From positions 124,001 to 188,000 of the forward strand of contig NZ_WSQA01000006.1 of assembly GCF_009768885.1 (NCBI RefSeq): a stretch of DNA of 64,000 bases, in the 5' to 3' direction. Made by a program: the position numbers and the translations under genes. Of the stretch, positions 2,635 to 13,560 are shown piece by piece. The notes under the pieces were generated by a model that was not told the origin of the DNA, did not search any database, and worked only from the letters and a program-made list of their open reading frames with translations. This DNA comes from Sphingobacterium humi. GTDB lineage: Bacteria > Bacteroidota > Bacteroidia > Sphingobacteriales > Sphingobacteriaceae. Position 1 is the first letter of the stretch. Every line of letters starts with the position of its first letter.

Positions 2635-3183
2635 TTATTGCATTTTGGTAGCAGGAATAGATTTTGGCTTACTCTTAAAATAATTTGTAAAACCTATTTT
2701 ATACTGGTCTATTTCCTTTTTTAGGGTCTGCATCATTAGCTCTTTTGCTTCCTTCTTTCCTTCCAGCAAACCTTTCCAAGTAAGTACAGTTTTTCCATCG
2801 GCTAATTCTTCCGTAAATATGGCTACTTGAACAAGTTTTAAATCTTTAGGCAACTGATCATCTTGAAAATGGTAAACTAAAAAGCGGTGTTGTTCTTCCT
2901 GCTGTGTTACCTCATCATTTCGAATCGATCCATCTTTGAATGTCGTTTTCCGCGAGAACGGCAATTCATTACCTTGATTTTCCACGGATTGCACATAGCC
3001 GTTCGAAAGTTTAGCTGCCATTTCCGGATTCTTTAATACCGTCCAAATAGCATCACGATCGGCCGCAATGGTTAGCTTTTCATCGATATCCCAAGCTACA
3101 GTTCTGGCGGCTCCCATTTGTGCATAGCTTGTTCCGAACATCGCCAGGAGAAACAACAAGCATAATATAAAAGGCTTTTGCAT
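2635..3183 (-). CDS. Exported SRPBCC-like (START-fold) protein
   Basis: 182 residues with a clear signal peptide (cut near SYAQ, residue 21). The mature part has the outline of an SRPBCC ligand-binding protein: a strand (WDIDEKLTIAADRDAIWTVL), a helix-like stretch, strands with a VxxxGN turn, and a long C-terminal amphipathic helix. SRPBCC proteins bind hydrophobic ligands; an exported one is less usual, and the ligand is unknown. The ATG overlaps the TAA of the upstream TlpA-like gene by one base, so it is the last gene of the SusCD operon. The family is assigned by pattern, not by a conserved catalytic motif. Confidence 0.72.
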   Translation of the reverse strand: MQKPFILCLLFLLAMFGTSYAQMGAARTVAWDIDEKLTIAADRDAIWTVLKNPEMAAKLSNGYVQSVENQGNELPFSRKTTFKDGSIRNDEVTQQEEQHRFLVYHFQDDQLPKDLKLVQVAIFTEELADGKTVLTWKGLLEGKKEAKELMMQTLKKEIDQYKIGFTNYFKSKPKSIPATKMQ

Positions 3184-4352
3184 TATTTACCTCCTAACAA
3201 TTTTGCGATTTCTTTTTCCAAATTATCACCTCTTAAATTCTTAGCAACAATCTTTCCATCGCTATCTAACAAATAATTCATCGGAATTGCTGTGATGTTA
3301 TAATATTGAGCAGCCTCATTTTTCCATCCTTTTAAGTCAGAGACCTGAGCCCATGGCATTTTATCATCCTTCACAGCCTTTAACCAATTATCTTTTTTAT
3401 CATCTAATGAAATGGCAAACACATCAAAACCTTGGCCTTTATACTTGTCATAAACCTTTAACACATGGGGATTTTCAGCACGACAAGGACCACACCAAGA
3501 AGCCCAAAAATCAACCAATACATATTTCTTACCTTTCAGGTAATCGTATAAATTGATATTTTTCCCTTCCTGATTAGGCTGGGTGATATTGATAAATTTC
3601 GCTCCCATTTCTGTTTTCTTGGCTGCCGCCATTTCCTTATCAATACTAGCTTTAACATCTTTTGCTTCCTGCAACCAAGGGTATTTTTCAATCAAAGGAT
3701 TTACATGAGCCAAAATAAAATCCTTCTCCCGGCGGGCACTCACAAAATTCAATGCATATACCACCTGTGGATCGTTTTTATAGTTTCTAACGTACCATTT
3801 TGCACGAGTAGCCATATTATCATACTGTTCCATCATCATATCCGTCAAAGATTTTGTCATGGCTGTATCTTTCGCTTTCATCGCCATATATTGTCTTTTC
3901 CCGATAGCTATGGTATTTTGATAATTCTGATAATTTTCCCAGTTCAGCATATTGATCAATTGGTTGTCTTTTCCTTCTGATTCAATAAATACATAAGGTG
4001 GGTTTTTAATCTTCACCTTGGCTGTATCTTCACCACGGAAATCAATTTTTAAATCATCATTTCCTGCCCAAAACGTAATCCTATCCCAACCAAACACATC
4101 TAAAGTATACAAGCGAGGTGTTTTTGCTGGCACTTTTATTTCATAAGTACTATCGGCTTTTAATTTGATAGTTTGATAAACTTCTGCATCCTTCATGGAT
4201 TTATCCTTTAATACGAAAGGGAATTTTTCTTGGTTTTCGGCACTTGGCGGGAAATTAACTTTTCCTTTTACGGTGATAAACTCACGCGTTTGAGCACTTA
4301 ATCCGGCGCACATTACTAATCCAATAAAAGTGCTTAATAATAGTTTCTTCAT
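3183..4352 (-). CDS. TlpA-like periplasmic thioredoxin protein
   Basis: 389 residues. After a signal peptide (residues 1-20) comes a beta-rich N-terminal region of about 100 residues, like the DUF4369 class. A helical linker follows, then a thioredoxin/AhpC-type domain from about 255 to the end. The redox motif is WASWCGPCR (Cys287 and Cys290) and the cis-proline lies in NITAIP (about 357). Such Bacteroidota proteins sit in the periplasm or on the membrane and reduce or shuffle disulfides. It lies 17 bases after a paralogue with a different CxxC dipeptide. The partner substrate is not known; cargo or components of the adjacent SusCD system are plausible. Confidence 0.9.
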   Translation of the reverse strand: MKKLLLSTFIGLVMCAGLSAQTREFITVKGKVNFPPSAENQEKFPFVLKDKSMKDAEVYQTIKLKADSTYEIKVPAKTPRLYTLDVFGWDRITFWAGNDDLKIDFRGEDTAKVKIKNPPYVFIESEGKDNQLINMLNWENYQNYQNTIAIGKRQYMAMKAKDTAMTKSLTDMMMEQYDNMATRAKWYVRNYKNDPQVVYALNFVSARREKDFILAHVNPLIEKYPWLQEAKDVKASIDKEMAAAKKTEMGAKFINITQPNQEGKNINLYDYLKGKKYVLVDFWASWCGPCRAENPHVLKVYDKYKGQGFDVFAISLDDKKDNWLKAVKDDKMPWAQVSDLKGWKNEAAQYYNITAIPMNYLLDSDGKIVAKNLRGDNLEKEIAKLLGGK

Positions 4353-4369: not shown

Positions 4370-5491
4370 TTAAAATTTAATGTTGAATAATTCTTCTAAT
4401 TTCTTTTCCATAGCTCCTCCTCCTTTTGGATCAAAGCCGATTTCCTTCATTATAATTTTTCCTGATGGATCAATTAAATAGGACGTAGGCACCGCACTCA
4501 CGTTAAACAGGGCAGATGACATCAATGTATTATCATACAATTGCGGCCAAGGATTTGCCTCCTCTTTCACGGCATTTAGCCATGCTTCTTTATTTTTATC
4601 AATGGAAACATTGACAATGACAAAATCCTTTCCTTTTAGTTTCGCATTCACTTCCCGAATGCGTGGGAAGGACGCGCGACATGGCGCACACCAGGATGCC
4701 CAGAAATCCAAAAGCACATACTTCCCTTTGAATTCCGCAAAAGAACGCTGTTTGTTATCCTGATCTGGTAAGGAAAAATCAGGAACCATGGCTCCTACTT
4801 TTCCATTTTTCATTCCTTGTAGTTTTGCCTGTACCACTCGTCCTGTTTCAGAAGCCTTTACCTCTTTGCTCAATCCCTGATAATAACGATCCAACTTATT
4901 TTCAGGAAGCGAGGAAAGAAGATTTAACAATAGATTGACAGTAACCAGTTCTGCAGGTTTATAATAAGCCTGCATTAAAGAGTCGTTCTTTTGTTGCATA
5001 ATCGATTCCATATAGGTATTGGCTTTTTCAAAATCTACATGGTTTTGCTTGAGGGCATCGGTTCCGAATTTATCAGTGGCCGCTTTCCGGGCAGCCATAT
5101 AAATTTTAGGGCGCGCCGCATTAAAATCAAAATACGTTGCAGCCGATGGCAAGCCTGAAACCTGAGCTGAAGACAGTCCTTTTTCGATATCAAAGGACAC
5201 ATTAATATCGCCTGACTTGTCGAAGAATAAAACTACCGGTGAATACATACGTCGTTTCGCGCGATCGTACTCTAAGGATATGGCACGTGATCCAGGCTCT
5301 TCCTCCTGCAGCGTAATTTCAAACCTGCCGTTTTCAATACTGGCTGAATCTTTTTTCAATTGGTTGTAGAAATACACTTTATTATGCCCCTCGGTATCTC
5401 CCGACACTTTCCCATGGATTTGTAGGGCAATCTGTCCGAAGGCAAATTGACAAGCTAAGAGTGCCAACCCTGATAATGCAATATTTTTCAT
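4370..5491 (-). CDS. TlpA-like periplasmic thioredoxin protein (second copy)
   Basis: 373 residues with the same architecture as its neighbour: signal peptide (ending FAFGQ), beta-rich N-terminal domain, helical linker, then a thioredoxin-like domain. The redox motif is WASWCAPCR (Cys268 and Cys271), with the cis-proline in NVSAVP. The CAPC versus CGPC dipeptide and weak similarity outside the thioredoxin domain suggest an old duplication with separate roles. It starts 19 bases after the M43-like lipoprotein gene, so it belongs to the same transcript. A role in keeping cysteines of uptake components reduced is inference. Confidence 0.9.
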   Translation of the reverse strand: MKNIALSGLALLACQFAFGQIALQIHGKVSGDTEGHNKVYFYNQLKKDSASIENGRFEITLQEEEPGSRAISLEYDRAKRRMYSPVVLFFDKSGDINVSFDIEKGLSSAQVSGLPSAATYFDFNAARPKIYMAARKAATDKFGTDALKQNHVDFEKANTYMESIMQQKNDSLMQAYYKPAELVTVNLLLNLLSSLPENKLDRYYQGLSKEVKASETGRVVQAKLQGMKNGKVGAMVPDFSLPDQDNKQRSFAEFKGKYVLLDFWASWCAPCRASFPRIREVNAKLKGKDFVIVNVSIDKNKEAWLNAVKEEANPWPQLYDNTLMSSALFNVSAVPTSYLIDPSGKIIMKEIGFDPKGGGAMEKKLEELFNIKF

Positions 5492-5510: not shown

Positions 5511-6761
5511 TTAGTTTTCTGTTGTCCAATTGCTACGAACGGGCGAGCGTTCCATAAGCAAGCGCATCCGTTCAACTTGGCCTAAGGTAAATGAATTCCT
5601 TAACGAAGGATAGCGAATGTCGTCCAAAGCATTATTTGCTAAGAATTTCTCCCCATCATTCCCAATTTTTAATAGGCTGTTCGTGATATTATTACTAAAC
5701 GTATATTTTCGAGTATCTGAAACATAGTCATCAACCACTGTTGTTCTATACAAGCCATAATATACGCCCAAATAAGAGGCAATTTCAATATTTCTGTCCA
5801 TTCCTGGGAAGAATATATTGCGATGTATGCCTAATCCAAAAGTCGTATAAAAATCAGTTGTTGGCACGTCGGCAATGGAATTCACAATATTAGCCACCCC
5901 TGGTATTGGCGTGCTACCAGCGGGCACAATTTGATAATTCGCGCGTTGAATTCCTAAACTGTTACTTGCAGTTAAGGGTAATAAATAAATATTCAAGAAC
6001 TTCTCTTTATTCCATTGATAGGCATTTGTAGCATTAATTTTCTTGGTAAAATCCGCTAGACTAAAAAAGCTTGAAGCACGCCAGCTGGAGTTATACATGA
6101 TTTTATTATAACCCGGCAAGGCTAAATTCGCCCCTGCAACATTCTTTTTGGCCAAACGGAATTCAATAGCAGCATTTGCGCCATTCGGATCCTTACCATT
6201 GGCGTTCGCAAAAACAAGGTTAGCATAAGCAACTGCTTGTTCCAAATGCCGTTGTTCAATAACCTGATAGGTTAACGGATCATAACTTGGATCTGTAGGT
6301 TCCAGTTCAAAGACATGGAAAACAACATCAACCACCCGCTTTGCAACTGCAACAGGAGGCTTTCTCAATTTTATAGTCTTCACTTTTGACTTCACCTTGC
6401 CCACCTGTGCATACAGGCTAATTTCCTGATTTCCGAGGTCTTTTGTTTTAAATTCCATTTCCTGCTGCGCTTTTCCATCGACGAAAATCTGCACTTGCTC
6501 AGCAGGTAGCGTATGGTAGTCTACAAACATCATGGTATCCTTCTTGCTGCCGTTTGGACCTGAGACAGCTACTTTTCGAAACGCTTCCAATACAAATTGT
6601 AATGTGGCCTTCCCATCCGCAATTAAGGAGTTACTGCCAGGTGAAAAATAAATAGAATCAATCTCATCCGCATTTGCTTGATACGTTTCATAGGGAAAAG
6701 ATTCCTTTTCGCAAGATTGAAATAAGCATAAGAAACCGATTAGATATAGTATTTTTTTCAT
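5511..6761 (-). CDS. M43/BF0631-like metzincin lipoprotein lacking the zinc site
   Basis: 416 residues with a lipoprotein signal (LFQSC, Cys17). Residues 140-400 follow the layout of Bacteroidota zinc-dependent metalloprotease lipoproteins: a VDVVFHVF strand, a helix with HLEQAVAYAN, FLNIYLLPL, a DDYVSDT segment (about 344-350) and the C-terminal FTLGQVERMR (391-400). Where the family has HExxHxxGxxH, this protein reads SYLGVYYGLYR (329-339; bases 5777-5745). Ser replaces the first His, Tyr the catalytic Glu, Val the second His and Arg the third His. The Cys usually found in the following Asp-rich segment is also absent. The open frame is intact, so this looks like a functional pseudoenzyme, perhaps a binding lipoprotein for the SusCD pair. 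Confidence 0.8.
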   Translation of the reverse strand: MKKILYLIGFLCLFQSCEKESFPYETYQANADEIDSIYFSPGSNSLIADGKATLQFVLEAFRKVAVSGPNGSKKDTMMFVDYHTLPAEQVQIFVDGKAQQEMEFKTKDLGNQEISLYAQVGKVKSKVKTIKLRKPPVAVAKRVVDVVFHVFELEPTDPSYDPLTYQVIEQRHLEQAVAYANLVFANANGKDPNGANAAIEFRLAKKNVAGANLALPGYNKIMYNSSWRASSFFSLADFTKKINATNAYQWNKEKFLNIYLLPLTASNSLGIQRANYQIVPAGSTPIPGVANIVNSIADVPTTDFYTTFGLGIHRNIFFPGMDRNIEIASYLGVYYGLYRTTVVDDYVSDTRKYTFSNNITNSLLKIGNDGEKFLANNALDDIRYPSLRNSFTLGQVERMRLLMERSPVRSNWTTEN

Positions 6762-6779: not shown

Positions 6780-8264
6780 TTAAAAGATTAGCGGTTCCCA
6801 GCCTTCATTTGGAACGATATGAGGATTTTCCTGAAGCTCAGATAGCGGAATAGGCAAAGAATAATGAAAATCACCTGCCGCCACCTTCATGTTAAAATCT
6901 ATGTTAAAGAACTTCAATGATCTATTGATAGTACCCAATTTATAGCGTTTAAGATCCAACCAGCGCTTATCGGTATCTGTAAAAAATTCCTTTCGTCTTT
7001 CGTTAATTATTTCGTTCAACAGCTCAGTGGCATTTCCAGAGCTAAGCTCCTTAGCGTTTCGGAATCGTTTAAAGGTATTTAATAGCTTTCTTCCCTCTTC
7101 CATGTTATTACTTCTGCAATAGGCTTCCGCTAGCATCAGGTAAGCTTCCTCAGGAGTAAATAAGTGCACCCGCACATACTTGGCGCCATAGGCTGCCCCA
7201 TCGGGCCAAGAAGACGATATAGTGTTATTATTGAAATAGACCGCTTTCCGGATATCCTGTTCATCAAACAACTGTAGTAAAGCAGGGGCAACCTTTAAAT
7301 TGGCAGGTGCGAAACCCATGTAATCCCAAGTCGATCCATAAATCGCAGAAATTCCCCCATAGTTCATTCCCTGCATATAATATGCGGGGTATTGCGAGAG
7401 TAGATTCTGCTGCACTTGCTGCAGGCTGGCCGTACTATTCGGGATAAAAGATTCTGTATTTTCCAAAGCAGCAGCGGCATATTTTATCACCTGCTGATAA
7501 TCGGAGGTTTCCTTGGCGGAAGATTCTGCTTTAAACCAATACACCTGGGCCAATAAATGTTGAATAAAACGGTCGTTAAAAAAACGGTTGTATCCAATAT
7601 TTGCACCGGCCTCTGTATAATAGCTTAATGCTTGCGAGAGATCATTTATTAAAACGGCATATATTTCCGTACTCGGCTTACGTTTCATCTCAATGCCCAT
7701 CACTTCTTTCCCCGTATGTAGGTATAAGGGAATACCCATTTCCTCCCGATCCATCGGTGCAAAGTATTGTTGAAGCTTGAAGATATAGAAAGCTCTATGC
7801 ACCAACATTTCTCCTTTTACACGTTTCAATTCCTGAGGATCGGCCTCCTTCAACTCCTCACATTGATCAATCAAGGCATTCAAAAACCCGATTGCTTCAT
7901 AATAGCTATTCCATATTTGGGTAGTCGTTTCATAATCGTTCCACAACAACTTATTCGCATAGAACTTTTCATTGCCATGGTTATTTTGTCTATTGATGTA
8001 TTGCGACATATTGCCTTCAAAATCGAAGTTATCAGCATAGCTTTCGAACATCATATTCTGTGCTTCCGTAATGATGGGATAAGGTCCCACAATAGGTCGG
8101 ATATTATTACGTGCGAAAGCATCTAAATAACCCGCCAACACTGATTTCACATCATTTAAGGTGGTTACTGCCCGCTGATTTTTCGGCGGCAGATCTAAAA
8201 AATCCTTACAGGAAGTCAATAAACTTCCCAGCATAATTATATAGAGATAAAATATCTTTTTCAT
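6780..8264 (-). CDS. SusD/RagB family outer-membrane lipoprotein
   Basis: Surface substrate-binding lipoprotein that forms the lid of the SusC transporter. About 494 residues with a lipoprotein signal (MLGSLLTSCKDFLDL, Cys19). The family's helical repeats follow, with a typical C-terminal part (EIINERRKEFFTDTDKRWLDL and a final P.I...E). I chose the ATG at 8264, four bases after the susC stop codon; an upstream in-frame TTG at 8279 would overlap susC and lengthen the signal peptide for no gain. The substrate cannot be read from the sequence. No glycosidase lies next to it, so peptides or other non-glycan ligands are possible. Confidence 0.93.
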   Translation of the reverse strand: MKKIFYLYIIMLGSLLTSCKDFLDLPPKNQRAVTTLNDVKSVLAGYLDAFARNNIRPIVGPYPIITEAQNMMFESYADNFDFEGNMSQYINRQNNHGNEKFYANKLLWNDYETTTQIWNSYYEAIGFLNALIDQCEELKEADPQELKRVKGEMLVHRAFYIFKLQQYFAPMDREEMGIPLYLHTGKEVMGIEMKRKPSTEIYAVLINDLSQALSYYTEAGANIGYNRFFNDRFIQHLLAQVYWFKAESSAKETSDYQQVIKYAAAALENTESFIPNSTASLQQVQQNLLSQYPAYYMQGMNYGGISAIYGSTWDYMGFAPANLKVAPALLQLFDEQDIRKAVYFNNNTISSSWPDGAAYGAKYVRVHLFTPEEAYLMLAEAYCRSNNMEEGRKLLNTFKRFRNAKELSSGNATELLNEIINERRKEFFTDTDKRWLDLKRYKLGTINRSLKFFNIDFNMKVAAGDFHYSLPIPLSELQENPHIVPNEGWEPLIF

Positions 8265-8268
8265 GTTT

Positions 8269-11200
8269 TTAAAAGCCAACGTTTAAAGAAAAGGTATAAC
8301 TCGCTGTTGTGGGATAACCAAAGGCCGTTTGTGTCTCTGGATCAGTACCCGAATACGGAGATATGGTGAATAGGTTATTCGCATATAAACCAAGCTGCAA
8401 TTGCTTAACGATTTTTTTGAACATCGTCGGATTTGCACGCCAGCTCAATCCCAACTCGGTACATTTAATATATGCACCAGACTCAACATCCTTGTCGATG
8501 AGGTAAGAGGCATAATTGGAGAATCCTTGCGAGTAAAATGCGACATCCGTCATATCGCCATACTGACGCCAGCGATACTGTTGATTCTTCAGGCGGTTTG
8601 TACGGCTGGCTGTCACATCATCCGTCGCACCACTAGGTCCTTCACGACGGTCCTGGAAGCCTTTGATCATATTCCCTTGAGCAAATACAAAATTGCTGGT
8701 TAGGCTCAAACTCTTATACCGAATCCGGGTATTAAAACCACCATATAGTTTCGGATCCTGTTGTCCCAAGAAATACGTCCGATACTTAGCTTGTAGATCT
8801 GCCGATGAAATTTTAGACAGGTCAATTACTTCATCGCCTGTAATATTTCCACTTGCATCTATAGCTTGGGCATGCACCATCATATGCCCATTGCTTGGAT
8901 CAATATGACTGAATTTATAACCGAACCAAGATCGAACCGCATAATTCTCTACATTTTGAGCAGCTAATGAGGAAACAGTTGGTGTCTTTTTATAGTATAC
9001 TTTATCCAGGTTGTTTTTTACTGTGGTTAGGTTTGCTCCCACTTCCCATAACCAATCCTCATTTTTAACGGCTTCTACCCGGGCCGAAAGCTCCCAACCT
9101 TTATTAGATAGTACGCCCGCATTAACGATGGAAGAAGTTCTTCCCACAGAGGCTGGCAAGGCAACCCGATCTAGCAAGTCGGTTACTTTATTATCATAAT
9201 AATTCGCCTCCAAATTTAAGCGGCTATTGAAAACCGATAGTTGGACCCCATAATTGATATCGCGTTTTTTCTCCCATTTCAACACCGGATTTCCATAATC
9301 AAAACGGCTTGCTTTGGCCACATCATCATACACAAGTGCACTTAGCGTATAGGTATGAAATGGATAAACGGAACGGTTGATGCTACCCGTATAGCCATAT
9401 CCAAAAGAGAACACCAAGCGATTTAACCAAGGCATTTGCTCTTTAACAAGCATTTCTTCATGGGCATTCCATTTGAATCCGGCCGACCATAATGGCGTAA
9501 ATTGATTTTTAGAACCAATGATATCGACACCATCGGAACGGAAATTCGCATTAACTACATAGCGATTTGCATAGGCGTAAGCAAAAGAGCTGATAAAAGA
9601 AACCGATCGATCGCGCTCATAATAGGTACCGCCTAAGCGCGAGAGGTCCAATCTTTTATAGGTAGATGCTGGAATATCATCCCAAGAAGGATAACCGGCC
9701 ATACGATATTCCTGTAAATACACGGGGTTATAGTGGAAGAAACGATTGTTGGTTCGCTCTGATACCTCATTGGCTACGAAAGCCTGAACATAATGTTTCT
9801 CCTGAAACGTCCGATTATACTCTAGGGTATTGCGAACGGTATAGTCGATTGTTTTTCCCGAGTTCTCTTCCAAGAATCCATAGTTGAATTTCGGAAGGAT
9901 GCCGGCACCACCAGTAATGGCTGAATTCAACCAGTTTTCCGCATAAGAACGATAGGTTCCGGCGCGGGATTCATCGGTAGTTTGCACATTCGTATAATTC
10001 AACACCCCTGTACCCCTGTATTGAAATCCATTTAAGAATTTCCATTCAAAGCCCAATTGACTACGAATGTTACCATAATCGGTAGACAAGGTATTTTCCT
10101 TTAATTCCCGGATGATATTAAAGGTTTTGTAATTCAGATCGGAATAATAATTCAGGTCATTACTTAAGTTTCTATAGGTATTATCCCATGCGAAAGAACC
10201 ATCTTGTAAATATGGTTGTTCATATGGATTGGCAAACAGTGCATAGCGAAAGGGATCCTGGTTAGATTGTCCTTCTCTATTTTTCTTGATCGTGGAATTG
10301 ATATTAAAGTCGATTAAAATGCGATCATTAATGTTTCTTGTCAGTTTCAAATTCATTCCACCTTGCTTAAACTGATTCTCCATTAAGGTTCCATTCGCAT
10401 CCTGATAATTTAAGGATGCATTATATTGTAATTTGGTACTTCCGCCACTCATCGCGATGTTATGCGACTGTTGATAAGCGTGGTCATAAAGCACATCAAC
10501 CCAATCCGTATTAATTGCTGCTAAGGCATTTATTTGTGCTTCGGCTTCTTCCCGACTCAGGTTTCCATTGTCAGCCTGATAGAGCAATTGATTAACGCGT
10601 CCACCATATACGGGGTGAAAATCACCATAAATCTGACGTTCAAATGCGATCTTTTCCTGCGAATTCATAAAATTGAAGGTATTAATCGGTCGCATCGTTA
10701 GCCCTTGCTTCGTACTGTAGTTGATATAATCTTTACCAGCTTCACCTCTTTTGGTCGTGATCACAATAACGCCATTGGCAGCACGCGCACCATAAATGGA
10801 GGCCGCCGTTGCATCGCGTAAAATATCTATGGTCGCAATATCTTCAGGAGGGATATTTCCAATTCCGTTGGTGAGTAGGTTATTAATATTTGAATTGGTC
10901 TTGTCCATACCCGCCACATCGCCAGTTTGCAAAGGCATCCCATCGAGGATAATTAAAGGCTCGGCACTCCCCGTCATGGTATTACTTCCTCGGATGATAA
11001 TCGACCCTGTTTCTCCTGGACGGCCTGAATTCGAACGCACATAAACACCGGTCATTTTCCCACGCAAGGCTTTATCAATACTGGTAATTCCAGCACCTTC
11101 CAAATCTTCCCCTTTGATAGAAGAAATATTACCGACTAGTTTGCTTCTTTCGCGCTTTTGAATACCCGTGGAAACCAATACATCCTCAATCTGTTGGGCC

Positions 11201-11799
11201 TTCATCCGCAGGCGGATTAATAGTTGTTTTTGGTTCCCCACTTGGATCACTTCAGGATGGTATCCCAAGGAATTCGCTTCAATTTCTTTGGCATTTTCTA
11301 ACTTGAGCATTTTAAAGGTACCGGCTTGATCCGTTGCTGTTCCGATCCGGGTTCCCTTAATGAGCACTGTCGCACCAATAATAGGCTTTCCATCTTCATT
11401 GACCACCCGCCCATGGATGGTATCTTGCTTGGAAGGTGTTAATTTCATCATCTCCCTATCCGTTGACTCATTCTTTTCTACCTTCTTCTTCACCAGAATT
11501 TGCTGGCCAGAAATCTTGAACTCTAAATTCGTTTTACTTTCCAGTTCCCGAATAATCTGTGCTAAGGGACAACTTGCGCAGGAGAAGGTAAGATTTGGAA
11601 TCTGAGTTACCTCCTTATCGTAAAGAAAAACATAATTGGTTTGTTTTTCTATCTGATTAAAGATGCTTACAATAGACTTTTCGCCCGCTGACACCCGAAT
11701 TTGTGCCCCTACTTGTAAGCTTTGCAACAGCAATAATAAGCAGATAGAAACCCCTAGTCCCCACGGTGAAATCGGGACTCTTTTAAAAAAATACTTCAT
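8269..11799 (-). CDS. SusC/RagA TonB-dependent transporter with STN signalling domain
   Basis: 1176-residue outer-membrane transporter. In order: signal peptide (1-33), STN secretin/TonB N-terminal domain (about 36-105), carboxypeptidase-regulatory-like beta domain (about 127-200), plug (about 210-350, with ASIYGARAANGVI) and a 22-strand type barrel ending in Phe (LNVGF). The linker to the plug has VSTGIQKRERSKL in place of the common VVVGYG form. The STN domain normally touches the periplasmic part of a FecR protein, and fecR and a sigma-factor gene lie just upstream. Substrate sensing at the outer membrane therefore likely controls transcription of this operon. The cargo is unknown. Confidence 0.95.
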   Translation of the reverse strand: MKYFFKRVPISPWGLGVSICLLLLLQSLQVGAQIRVSAGEKSIVSIFNQIEKQTNYVFLYDKEVTQIPNLTFSCASCPLAQIIRELESKTNLEFKISGQQILVKKKVEKNESTDREMMKLTPSKQDTIHGRVVNEDGKPIIGATVLIKGTRIGTATDQAGTFKMLKLENAKEIEANSLGYHPEVIQVGNQKQLLIRLRMKAQQIEDVLVSTGIQKRERSKLVGNISSIKGEDLEGAGITSIDKALRGKMTGVYVRSNSGRPGETGSIIIRGSNTMTGSAEPLIILDGMPLQTGDVAGMDKTNSNINNLLTNGIGNIPPEDIATIDILRDATAASIYGARAANGVIVITTKRGEAGKDYINYSTKQGLTMRPINTFNFMNSQEKIAFERQIYGDFHPVYGGRVNQLLYQADNGNLSREEAEAQINALAAINTDWVDVLYDHAYQQSHNIAMSGGSTKLQYNASLNYQDANGTLMENQFKQGGMNLKLTRNINDRILIDFNINSTIKKNREGQSNQDPFRYALFANPYEQPYLQDGSFAWDNTYRNLSNDLNYYSDLNYKTFNIIRELKENTLSTDYGNIRSQLGFEWKFLNGFQYRGTGVLNYTNVQTTDESRAGTYRSYAENWLNSAITGGAGILPKFNYGFLEENSGKTIDYTVRNTLEYNRTFQEKHYVQAFVANEVSERTNNRFFHYNPVYLQEYRMAGYPSWDDIPASTYKRLDLSRLGGTYYERDRSVSFISSFAYAYANRYVVNANFRSDGVDIIGSKNQFTPLWSAGFKWNAHEEMLVKEQMPWLNRLVFSFGYGYTGSINRSVYPFHTYTLSALVYDDVAKASRFDYGNPVLKWEKKRDINYGVQLSVFNSRLNLEANYYDNKVTDLLDRVALPASVGRTSSIVNAGVLSNKGWELSARVEAVKNEDWLWEVGANLTTVKNNLDKVYYKKTPTVSSLAAQNVENYAVRSWFGYKFSHIDPSNGHMMVHAQAIDASGNITGDEVIDLSKISSADLQAKYRTYFLGQQDPKLYGGFNTRIRYKSLSLTSNFVFAQGNMIKGFQDRREGPSGATDDVTASRTNRLKNQQYRWRQYGDMTDVAFYSQGFSNYASYLIDKDVESGAYIKCTELGLSWRANPTMFKKIVKQLQLGLYANNLFTISPYSGTDPETQTAFGYPTTASYTFSLNVGF

Positions 11800-11847: not shown

Positions 11848-12870
11848 TTATTCTTCTTTTTGAATTAACAAGTCGATGTCAAAGAAGTGCAGCATATCCA
11901 CCACTTCCTGCATAGAACCTTTTCTTTTTATCCGTCCGGAAATTTTCTTGCCCCTATCAGCCTCCTTTAACTTAATTTTTACAGGATACCAACGTTCCAA
12001 TTCCTGAATAATCATTTGCGGACTGGCATCTTCGAAATAAAAGTCACCTTCTTTCCAGGCAACTACAGCAGTCGGATTTTGTAACAGCTGTACATATTGG
12101 GTGCCTTGGGTTTTATTCGACACAAACTGTTCCGCCGGGGCCAACTGTAGCGCTTTTTGCTGTGCGTTGCTGATTTCCACTTTCCCTTCTAATAGGGTAA
12201 CTGACCCCATTTGCTCGTTAGCGTAATTGCGTGTATTAAAATGAGTACCTAACACTCGAACCTGTTGTTGTGGGGTATGTACGATAAAAGGCTTCTCTTT
12301 ATTAGGCGCGACTTCAAAGTATACTTCGCCTTCCACCTGTACCTCCCTAGTATCCCCTTCGAAGCTGGCCGGAAAAGTAATTTTGGAGAATGCATTTAAC
12401 CAAACGGCTGTTCCATCGGCCAATATCACCTGTTGTTGGCGTCCTCTACCTGTTTCTATCCATTGTTCTTTTCCAAGCGGGCTATCTACGTTCCATTTTC
12501 TAAAATCCAACTGTCCATGCTCGTCCATCACATTGGCCAGCTCCGCTGTTACCGTTTCTAGGTTATCTAATAAAATGGTATCGCCATTGGCCAATACCAA
12601 TTTTGAAATCGAGGCTGTATCTGCAAAAACCGTTTTTAACTCAGGTTCCTTTAAATAAGATGGACTGTTTATAAACCATAGGCCTAGCACAAGGAATACA
12701 CAGGCAACGGCTGCCGCGACCATCCAGGGCGTTTTAGCCGAACCAACTTCCGCATCCTCGAGAAGATGATTTAAACTCGAATCCCCATCTTGTTGTGCCC
12801 GCATCACAATTCCACGCCACAACTGCTGTTTCTTCTTACGGTCTTGATTTTTTTGAAATAGGTTTATCAT
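11848..12870 (-). CDS. FecR-family anti-sigma factor
   Basis: 340-residue inner-membrane regulator. A cytoplasmic N-terminal part (1-48) should bind the sigma factor, and a single membrane helix follows at about 49-68. The periplasmic part holds a FecR domain (about 140-236, with VILADGTAVWLNAFSKITFP and VEGEVYFEV) and a C-terminal DUF4974 domain (about 268-338, GDFYFEDASPQMIIQELERW). It sits between the ECF sigma gene (111 bases upstream) and the STN-bearing susC (48 bases downstream), the usual order for transporter-controlled signalling in this phylum. Release of the sigma factor on substrate binding is family knowledge, not shown here. Confidence 0.94.
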   Translation of the reverse strand: MINLFQKNQDRKKKQQLWRGIVMRAQQDGDSSLNHLLEDAEVGSAKTPWMVAAAVACVFLVLGLWFINSPSYLKEPELKTVFADTASISKLVLANGDTILLDNLETVTAELANVMDEHGQLDFRKWNVDSPLGKEQWIETGRGRQQQVILADGTAVWLNAFSKITFPASFEGDTREVQVEGEVYFEVAPNKEKPFIVHTPQQQVRVLGTHFNTRNYANEQMGSVTLLEGKVEISNAQQKALQLAPAEQFVSNKTQGTQYVQLLQNPTAVVAWKEGDFYFEDASPQMIIQELERWYPVKIKLKEADRGKKISGRIKRKGSMQEVVDMLHFFDIDLLIQKEE

Positions 12871-12981: not shown

Positions 12982-13560
12982 TTACCAATGGATGAAAAAC
13001 AAAAATAATAACCAGGTGGTTTTATTACCAAAGCGATCTCGAAGACGTTTTAAGGCACTTGAAATTTGGTTTCTCACGGTTTGCACAGAAATACCTAATT
13101 TCTCTGCAATTTGGAGGGCAGATAGGTTTTCAAATCGACTCAACAAAAATATCTCTTTCATCTTTTCCGGCATCGCATCTATCTCCTTACGCACAAGCAG
13201 ATTTTCTTCGGTATAATCCTCACGAGTACTTTCAGCGAAATTATAATCCCAATATTCTTCTTGATCATCAAGCGGCACGAAGACAGGAAGTTTATCTCTT
13301 TTAGCATAAAAGTCATAAATTTTATGGCGGAGCATAGAGGTTAAATATCCTTCAATATGATTCTTGACCTGCCAGTATCCTCTATTTTTCCAAATAACAT
13401 AAAAAACGTCTTGTGTAATATCGGAGGCATCCTCTTCATTGGCTAGCTTTTGCTTGGCGAGTCTATATATTTTTTTCCAATAGCTATCAAACAAGCGTTT
13501 AAAAGCTTCTGGATTAGCATCATTGATACCGTTTACCAAATCTTGATCTTCCTTTTTCAC
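12982..13560 (-). CDS. ECF RNA polymerase sigma factor (FecI-like)
   Basis: 192 residues. The sigma-2 region (FKRLFDSYWKKIYRLAKQKL, then DASDITQDVFYVIWKNR) and sigma-4 helix-turn-helix (LSALQIAEKLGISVQTVRNQ) are intact, with the MPEKMKEIFLLSRFE linker typical of Bacteroidota ECF factors. The only suitable start is a GTG at 13560; no ATG occurs nearby in frame. The C-terminus ends in an unusual hydrophobic run (TTWLLFLFFIHW) after the DNA-binding helix, which might aid contact with the membrane or FecR. It heads the FecR/SusCD cluster and likely turns on the susC promoter and possibly its own. Confidence 0.93.
   Translation of the reverse strand: MKKEDQDLVNGINDANPEAFKRLFDSYWKKIYRLAKQKLANEEDASDITQDVFYVIWKNRGYWQVKNHIEGYLTSMLRHKIYDFYAKRDKLPVFVPLDDQEEYWDYNFAESTREDYTEENLLVRKEIDAMPEKMKEIFLLSRFENLSALQIAEKLGISVQTVRNQISSALKRLRDRFGNKTTWLLFLFFIHW

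Follow-up and report, generated by a model that had tools for sequence, protein, structure and literature searches.

A pappalysin-type lipoprotein encoded behind SusD in Sphingobacterium lacks the zinc and catalytic site and probably serves in substrate capture

According to our analysis, the gene at positions 5511 to 6761 of the reverse strand in the 64,000-nucleotide stretch of Sphingobacterium humi DNA studied here (the window) encodes a pseudo-pappalysin, a predicted lipoprotein whose C-terminal domain resembles the pappalysin (M43) metzincins but carries none of their zinc ligands, nor the catalytic Glu. We think it probable that this dead protease was recruited as a surface substrate-capture lipoprotein of a SusCD system, in the slot otherwise held by surface glycan-binding proteins (SGBPs). 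The reading frame, its intactness and its coordinates as given in the initial annotation were all correct. The gene and its parts are as follows.

5511..6761, reverse strand: pseudo-pappalysin lipoprotein, 416 aa (open reading frame call, no frame break)
6708..6761, reverse strand: signal peptide and lipobox Cys17, C-E-K-E-S (sequence)
6360..6674, reverse strand: predicted N-terminal beta-sandwich domain, Ig-like, about residues 30-134 (AF2 strands)
5514..6341, reverse strand: predicted metzincin (M43) domain, residues 141-416 (hhalign, AF2, structure match)
5745..5777, reverse strand: former zinc helix SYLGVYYGLYR, residues 329-339 (aligned to HELGHYLGLYH)
5712..5729, reverse strand: kept D345-x3-D349-T350 (DDYVSDT), in the loop behind the zinc helix
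5562..5633, reverse strand: former Met-turn (NALDD) and C-terminal helix FTLGQVERMR

The metzincin signal of the single sequence is modest, whereas that of the family is clear. The window protein alone matches both models with which it was to be checked, but under the cut-off in each case, with 21.7 bits for PF05572 (gathering score 23) and 57 bits for TIGR03952 (curated cut-off 208); the TIGR03952 matches flank the active site on both sides, and an orthologue (L005) reaches 82 bits against the same cut-off of 208. When the 17-member clade described below was compared by hhalign with 13 zinc-intact M43 proteins, the probability was 100 and the E value 3.1e-40, and the 17-row clade profile matched mirolysin at 5.9e-16 and ulilysin at 1.5e-8 among PDB sequences. 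The segment SYLGVYYGLYR sits without gaps on HELGHYLGLYH in the hhalign comparison, and a 51-row MAFFT alignment places it in the same register. AF2 modeling of the metzincin domain alone (23 rows) gave a pLDDT of 71 and a pTM of 0.76, with a helix at residues 328-334. The domain model matches mirolysin and ulilysin with Foldseek E values of about 1e-10 to 1e-8 and with VIA Z scores of 19.3 for ulilysin and 19.1 for mirolysin, over 221-228 residues. Because zinc-intact relatives found on viral contigs were among the 23 input rows, this model cannot count as independent evidence beside the sequence comparison, as the profile comparisons can. Full-length AF2 modeling with four orthologues did not recover the domain, the pLDDT of which was mostly below 40. 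Taken at the level of profiles and a predicted domain, both of which match pappalysins and not an unrelated fold, the C-terminal domain (about residues 141-416) is confirmed as a pappalysin-type (M43) metzincin, in line with the metzincin-like protein called at the outset.

Bases 5777 to 5745 of the reverse strand do encode SYLGVYYGLYR, as the initial annotation had it, and the three zinc-binding His and the catalytic Glu are gone. There is no HExxH anywhere in the 416 residues of the window protein, which contains only four His (83, 149, 172, and 313) and two Cys, one in the signal peptide (Cys12) and one in the lipobox (Cys17), with none in the metzincin domain. Two further losses, beyond those first described, concern the structural disulfide Cys of the pappalysin family (mirolysin has two structural disulfides [PMC6949598]) and the Met of the Met-turn, which is Leu379 in the window copy and Met in 9 of 11 orthologues. 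None of the four active-site residues occurs in any clade member, so the survey of SusCD-adjacent homologues found the same loss at 17 of 17 loci. Among the orthologues, the ligand positions vary (S/Q/P/G at 329, V/T/I/R/A/L/K/S at 333, and R/P/A/S at 339), ten have Tyr and one has His at position 330, formerly Glu, and Tyr330 and the pair Tyr334-Tyr335 persist in nearly every orthologue. The Asp-rich and FTxGQxERMR segments downstream were said to persist, and they do: D345-x3-D349-T350 is invariant in all 17 members and common to zinc-intact relatives too, and conservation is highest in the C-terminal part. The enzyme motif HExxHxxGxxH/D is absent from the window protein, and its pseudoenzyme status is well supported.

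At the N terminus, the lipobox Cys17 is invariant across the clade (17/17). All 11 orthologues carry K at +3 and D/E at +4, i.e., one acidic residue and not two, a partial match to the C-X-K-(D/E)2 consensus for surface export, which was described for Capnocytophaga (PMC5080379). On the basis of this partial match, the pseudo-pappalysin may be displayed on the cell surface. The N-terminal domain, in which AF2 places strands between residues 36 and 133 with a pLDDT of about 66-89, gave weak matches of Ig type in a fold search, the best being LigA at an E value of 0.02.

The gene belongs to an operon running in the order ECF sigma factor, FecR, SusC, SusD, pseudo-pappalysin, two TlpA-like proteins, and an SRPBCC-like protein. 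Its other members, all on the reverse strand, are the following.

12982..13560, reverse strand: ECF sigma factor (Sigma70_r2, r4_2, Sigma70_ECF)
11848..12870, reverse strand: FecR-type anti-sigma factor (PF04773)
8269..11799, reverse strand: SusC-like TonB-dependent transporter (Plug and CarboxypepD_reg domains)
6780..8264, reverse strand: SusD-like lipoprotein, likely ATG start at 8264 (PF14322 and PF07980)
4370..5491, reverse strand: TlpA-like thioredoxin protein with DUF4369, CxxC (PF08534 and PF14289)
3183..4352, reverse strand: second TlpA-like thioredoxin protein, CxxC (PF00578)
2635..3183, reverse strand: SRPBCC-like protein with signal peptide, last operon gene (PF10604 at 27.3 bits, gathering score 27.4)

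The longest SusD reading frame (6780-8279) has a TTG start in the stop region of SusC; a start at the ATG at position 8264 yields a better signal peptide. Between the SusD stop and the pseudo-pappalysin start lie 18 bp, and 19 bp separate the end of the pseudo-pappalysin from the next gene; a gap of 17 bp and a 1-bp overlap follow, so that the description of a tight operon is upheld. Every operon gene in the window could be assigned, and none encodes a carbohydrate-active enzyme. The SRPBCC-like last gene is kept in most orthologous operons; in one of them it is tandemly duplicated (L104:5594-6735).

This setting is maintained across the clade, the pseudo-pappalysin being directly behind SusD at 17 of 17 loci and directly followed by a thioredoxin-fold gene at 16. 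The thioredoxin-fold partners differ in architecture (TlpA with DUF4369, N-terminal thioredoxin, or a fusion), which favors a functional link over mere hitchhiking. When 93 Sphingobacterium genomes were searched with the window SusD, scoring 16 candidates per genome in genomes that hold dozens of SusD-like candidates, the matches at an E value of 1e-40 or better were all at pseudo-pappalysin loci. Pairwise divergence of SusD and of the pseudo-pappalysin is correlated at 0.99 over 13 operons, a value that shared descent also gives. The pseudo-pappalysin thus travels with one SusCD lineage, a linkage that is well supported, and with thioredoxin-fold partners. The closest solved relatives of the SusC and SusD proteins do not indicate a single substrate class.

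The same 93 genomes, searched as samples, contain orthologues (54-61% identical) in 11, the window genome included, in a patchy distribution, and six remote paralogues of about 20-27% identity, which makes 17 loci in all. One Sphingobacterium assembly (G041), for which 4% contamination is reported, has two operon copies with identical match scores on contigs C7 and C20 (L002 and L016), possibly an assembly duplication. All 17 dead members fall into one clade in the tree (support 94/92), which is grouped (97/89) with the zinc-intact TIGR03952-type lipoproteins L052, L145, L146, L067, and L068. The first three are the nearest zinc-intact relatives and the last two are nearby, but the exact sister of the dead clade is unsure because several rows of the tree have long branches. 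On the simplest reading of this tree, the zinc site would have been lost in one ancestral event. The reading frames are full length and open at all 17 loci. Among the orthologues, dS is saturated for most pairs; the few in which it is not give a median dN/dS of about 0.11, and pN/pS is 0.34 overall, 0.31 in the domain, 0.38 in the former zinc helix, and 0.15 in the C-terminal part. The orthologues are under purifying selection and the gene is not decaying.

The initial annotation had also considered that homologues with an intact HExxH might occur in the same operon setting. Inside the dead clade none was found, but among about 40 M43 loci outside it, screened for neighboring SusC and SusD, two operons of another Bacteroidota family have one (L182:845-9178 and L189:1144-9327), two genes away from SusD: SusC and SusD are followed there by a pair of small lipoproteins and then by the zinc-intact M43 protein. 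No other SusCD operon among the loci screened had an intact M43; in these two, the M43 protein has PKD and T9SS sorting domains and is a T9SS-secreted enzyme of another, distant branch, so that the whole looks like a protein-degrading SusCD operon. Pappalysins and SusCD have thus been joined at least twice, once as an active, secreted enzyme and once as a dead, lipid-anchored protein. The zinc-intact proteins nearest to the dead clade on L052, L067, and L068, as well as a Sphingobacteriaceae enzyme (L045), are not encoded beside SusCD. The L052 gene adjoins Omp28 and DUF6029 genes, and at L090:2034-7183 a zinc-intact TIGR03952 lipoprotein scoring above the cut-off is encoded behind a DUF6029 gene and a gene for a thioredoxin-like lipoprotein of the Omp28 type; hence, even an intact TIGR03952 member is linked to the thioredoxin-like fold. 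The zinc-intact TIGR03952-type lipoprotein genes L145 and L146 are located at the ends of IMG/VR contigs, beside an opposite-strand gene of about 390 aa; these ends are perhaps the borders of mobile elements in host genomes. A class-wide profile search returned mostly ordinary zinc-intact M43 enzymes, and among 301 genomes of the family (5 scored candidates per genome) no SusCD-linked member was found outside Sphingobacterium.

The pseudo-pappalysin domain has the fold of mirolysin and ulilysin but is devoid of their zinc motif, catalytic Glu, disulfide Cys, and cysteine-switch pro-segment, and it has a lipid anchor and a predicted Ig-like stalk instead. It is a lipoprotein with the same domain as the TIGR03952 proteins (metzin_BF0631, zinc-dependent metalloproteinase lipoprotein), yet it scores under their cut-off and its zinc site is lost. 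The levan SGBP Bt1761, which sits on SusC, has Ig-like domains ahead of its globular binding domain (PMC7618045). SGBPs of this SusE/SusF type are, like the pseudo-pappalysin, lipoproteins of SusCD operons with a C-terminal globular domain behind an N-terminal part that is, here, predicted to be Ig-like; in contrast to them, the globular domain of the pseudo-pappalysin is a dead protease and its operon has thioredoxin partners and no glycoside hydrolase. A precedent for metzincins turned receptors is provided by ADAM11, ADAM22, and ADAM23, which are inactive (PMC11266112) and likewise have a metzincin domain without catalysis, although they belong to the animal M12B family, represent an unrelated lineage of loss, and involve no transporter. 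It is the SusE/SusF-like layout together with this precedent that leads us to read the protein as a substrate-capture lipoprotein of SusCD, and the fold, the clade-wide loss, the purifying selection, and the fixed place behind SusD all speak for the recruited pseudoenzyme proposed in the initial annotation. The lipoprotein would be flipped to the cell surface and stand on its Ig-like stalk beside SusCD, where the former substrate cleft would hold the ligand and hand it to SusD. As a pappalysin cleft evolved for binding an extended chain, the ligand would most likely be a peptide or protein. After import, the TlpA-like partners would reduce disulfides, and through SusC, FecR, and the ECF sigma factor, substrate uptake would probably induce the operon. 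More tentatively, and as a possibility that we rate below even chances, the SusCD system may import peptides or small disulfide-bonded proteins, with the pseudo-pappalysin as its capture subunit and the thioredoxin-like partners then reducing the cargo.

Binding in the cleft should not be taken for granted, since the partner of ADAM22 is bound by the domain surface and not by the pseudo-active site (PMC11266112). By pN/pS, the former zinc helix of the pseudo-pappalysin is no better conserved than the rest of the domain, and the C-terminal part is conserved best. Both points suit a subunit with an accessory or scaffold role and no substrate binding, which positions or stabilizes SusCD on the cell surface or takes part in signaling to FecR, and whose metzincin fold only offers a convenient surface. 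We hold this to be unlikely, though worth serious consideration, because Tyr330 and Tyr334-Tyr335, kept in nearly all orthologues, would suit a putative binding site. In characterized Sus-type loci, moreover, the gene right behind SusD usually encodes a binding protein or an enzyme. The same aromatic residues, with the SGBP-like operon position and layout, could belong to a dead cleft rebuilt for carbohydrate, but with thioredoxin-fold partners in place of any carbohydrate-active enzyme, and with peptidases as the intact M43 relatives, we regard a glycan-binding protein as improbable.

Two other explanations are rejected. The kept Asp/Thr loop behind the helix would suit a hydrolase that continues to depend on metal, bound by rearranged ligands, but of the four His of the protein only H313 is near the former site in sequence, the two Cys are confined to the signal peptide and lipobox, and orthologues differ freely at the three ligand positions, which makes such a site very improbable. 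A gene heading for loss would fit the patchy presence (11 of 93 genomes) and is harder still to credit given the full-length frames at every locus, the low median dN/dS, and the fixed operon position.

The Pfam M43 cut-off is exceeded by several orthologues even though they miss every zinc ligand, so that automatic annotation may label them zinc proteases. M43 goes unmentioned in a 2024 review of metallopeptidase homologues that are inactive, and our literature search found no paper mentioning TIGR03952. Substrate capture by the pseudo-pappalysin would be a documented case in which an entire clade of dead pappalysins was taken over by a SusCD importer, and it would help in finding the substrate of an uncharacterized, thioredoxin-linked SusCD class. 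If the more tentative reading of peptide import is true, the system would represent a peptide-uptake counterpart of the glycan utilisomes, its binding protein derived from an ancestral protease.
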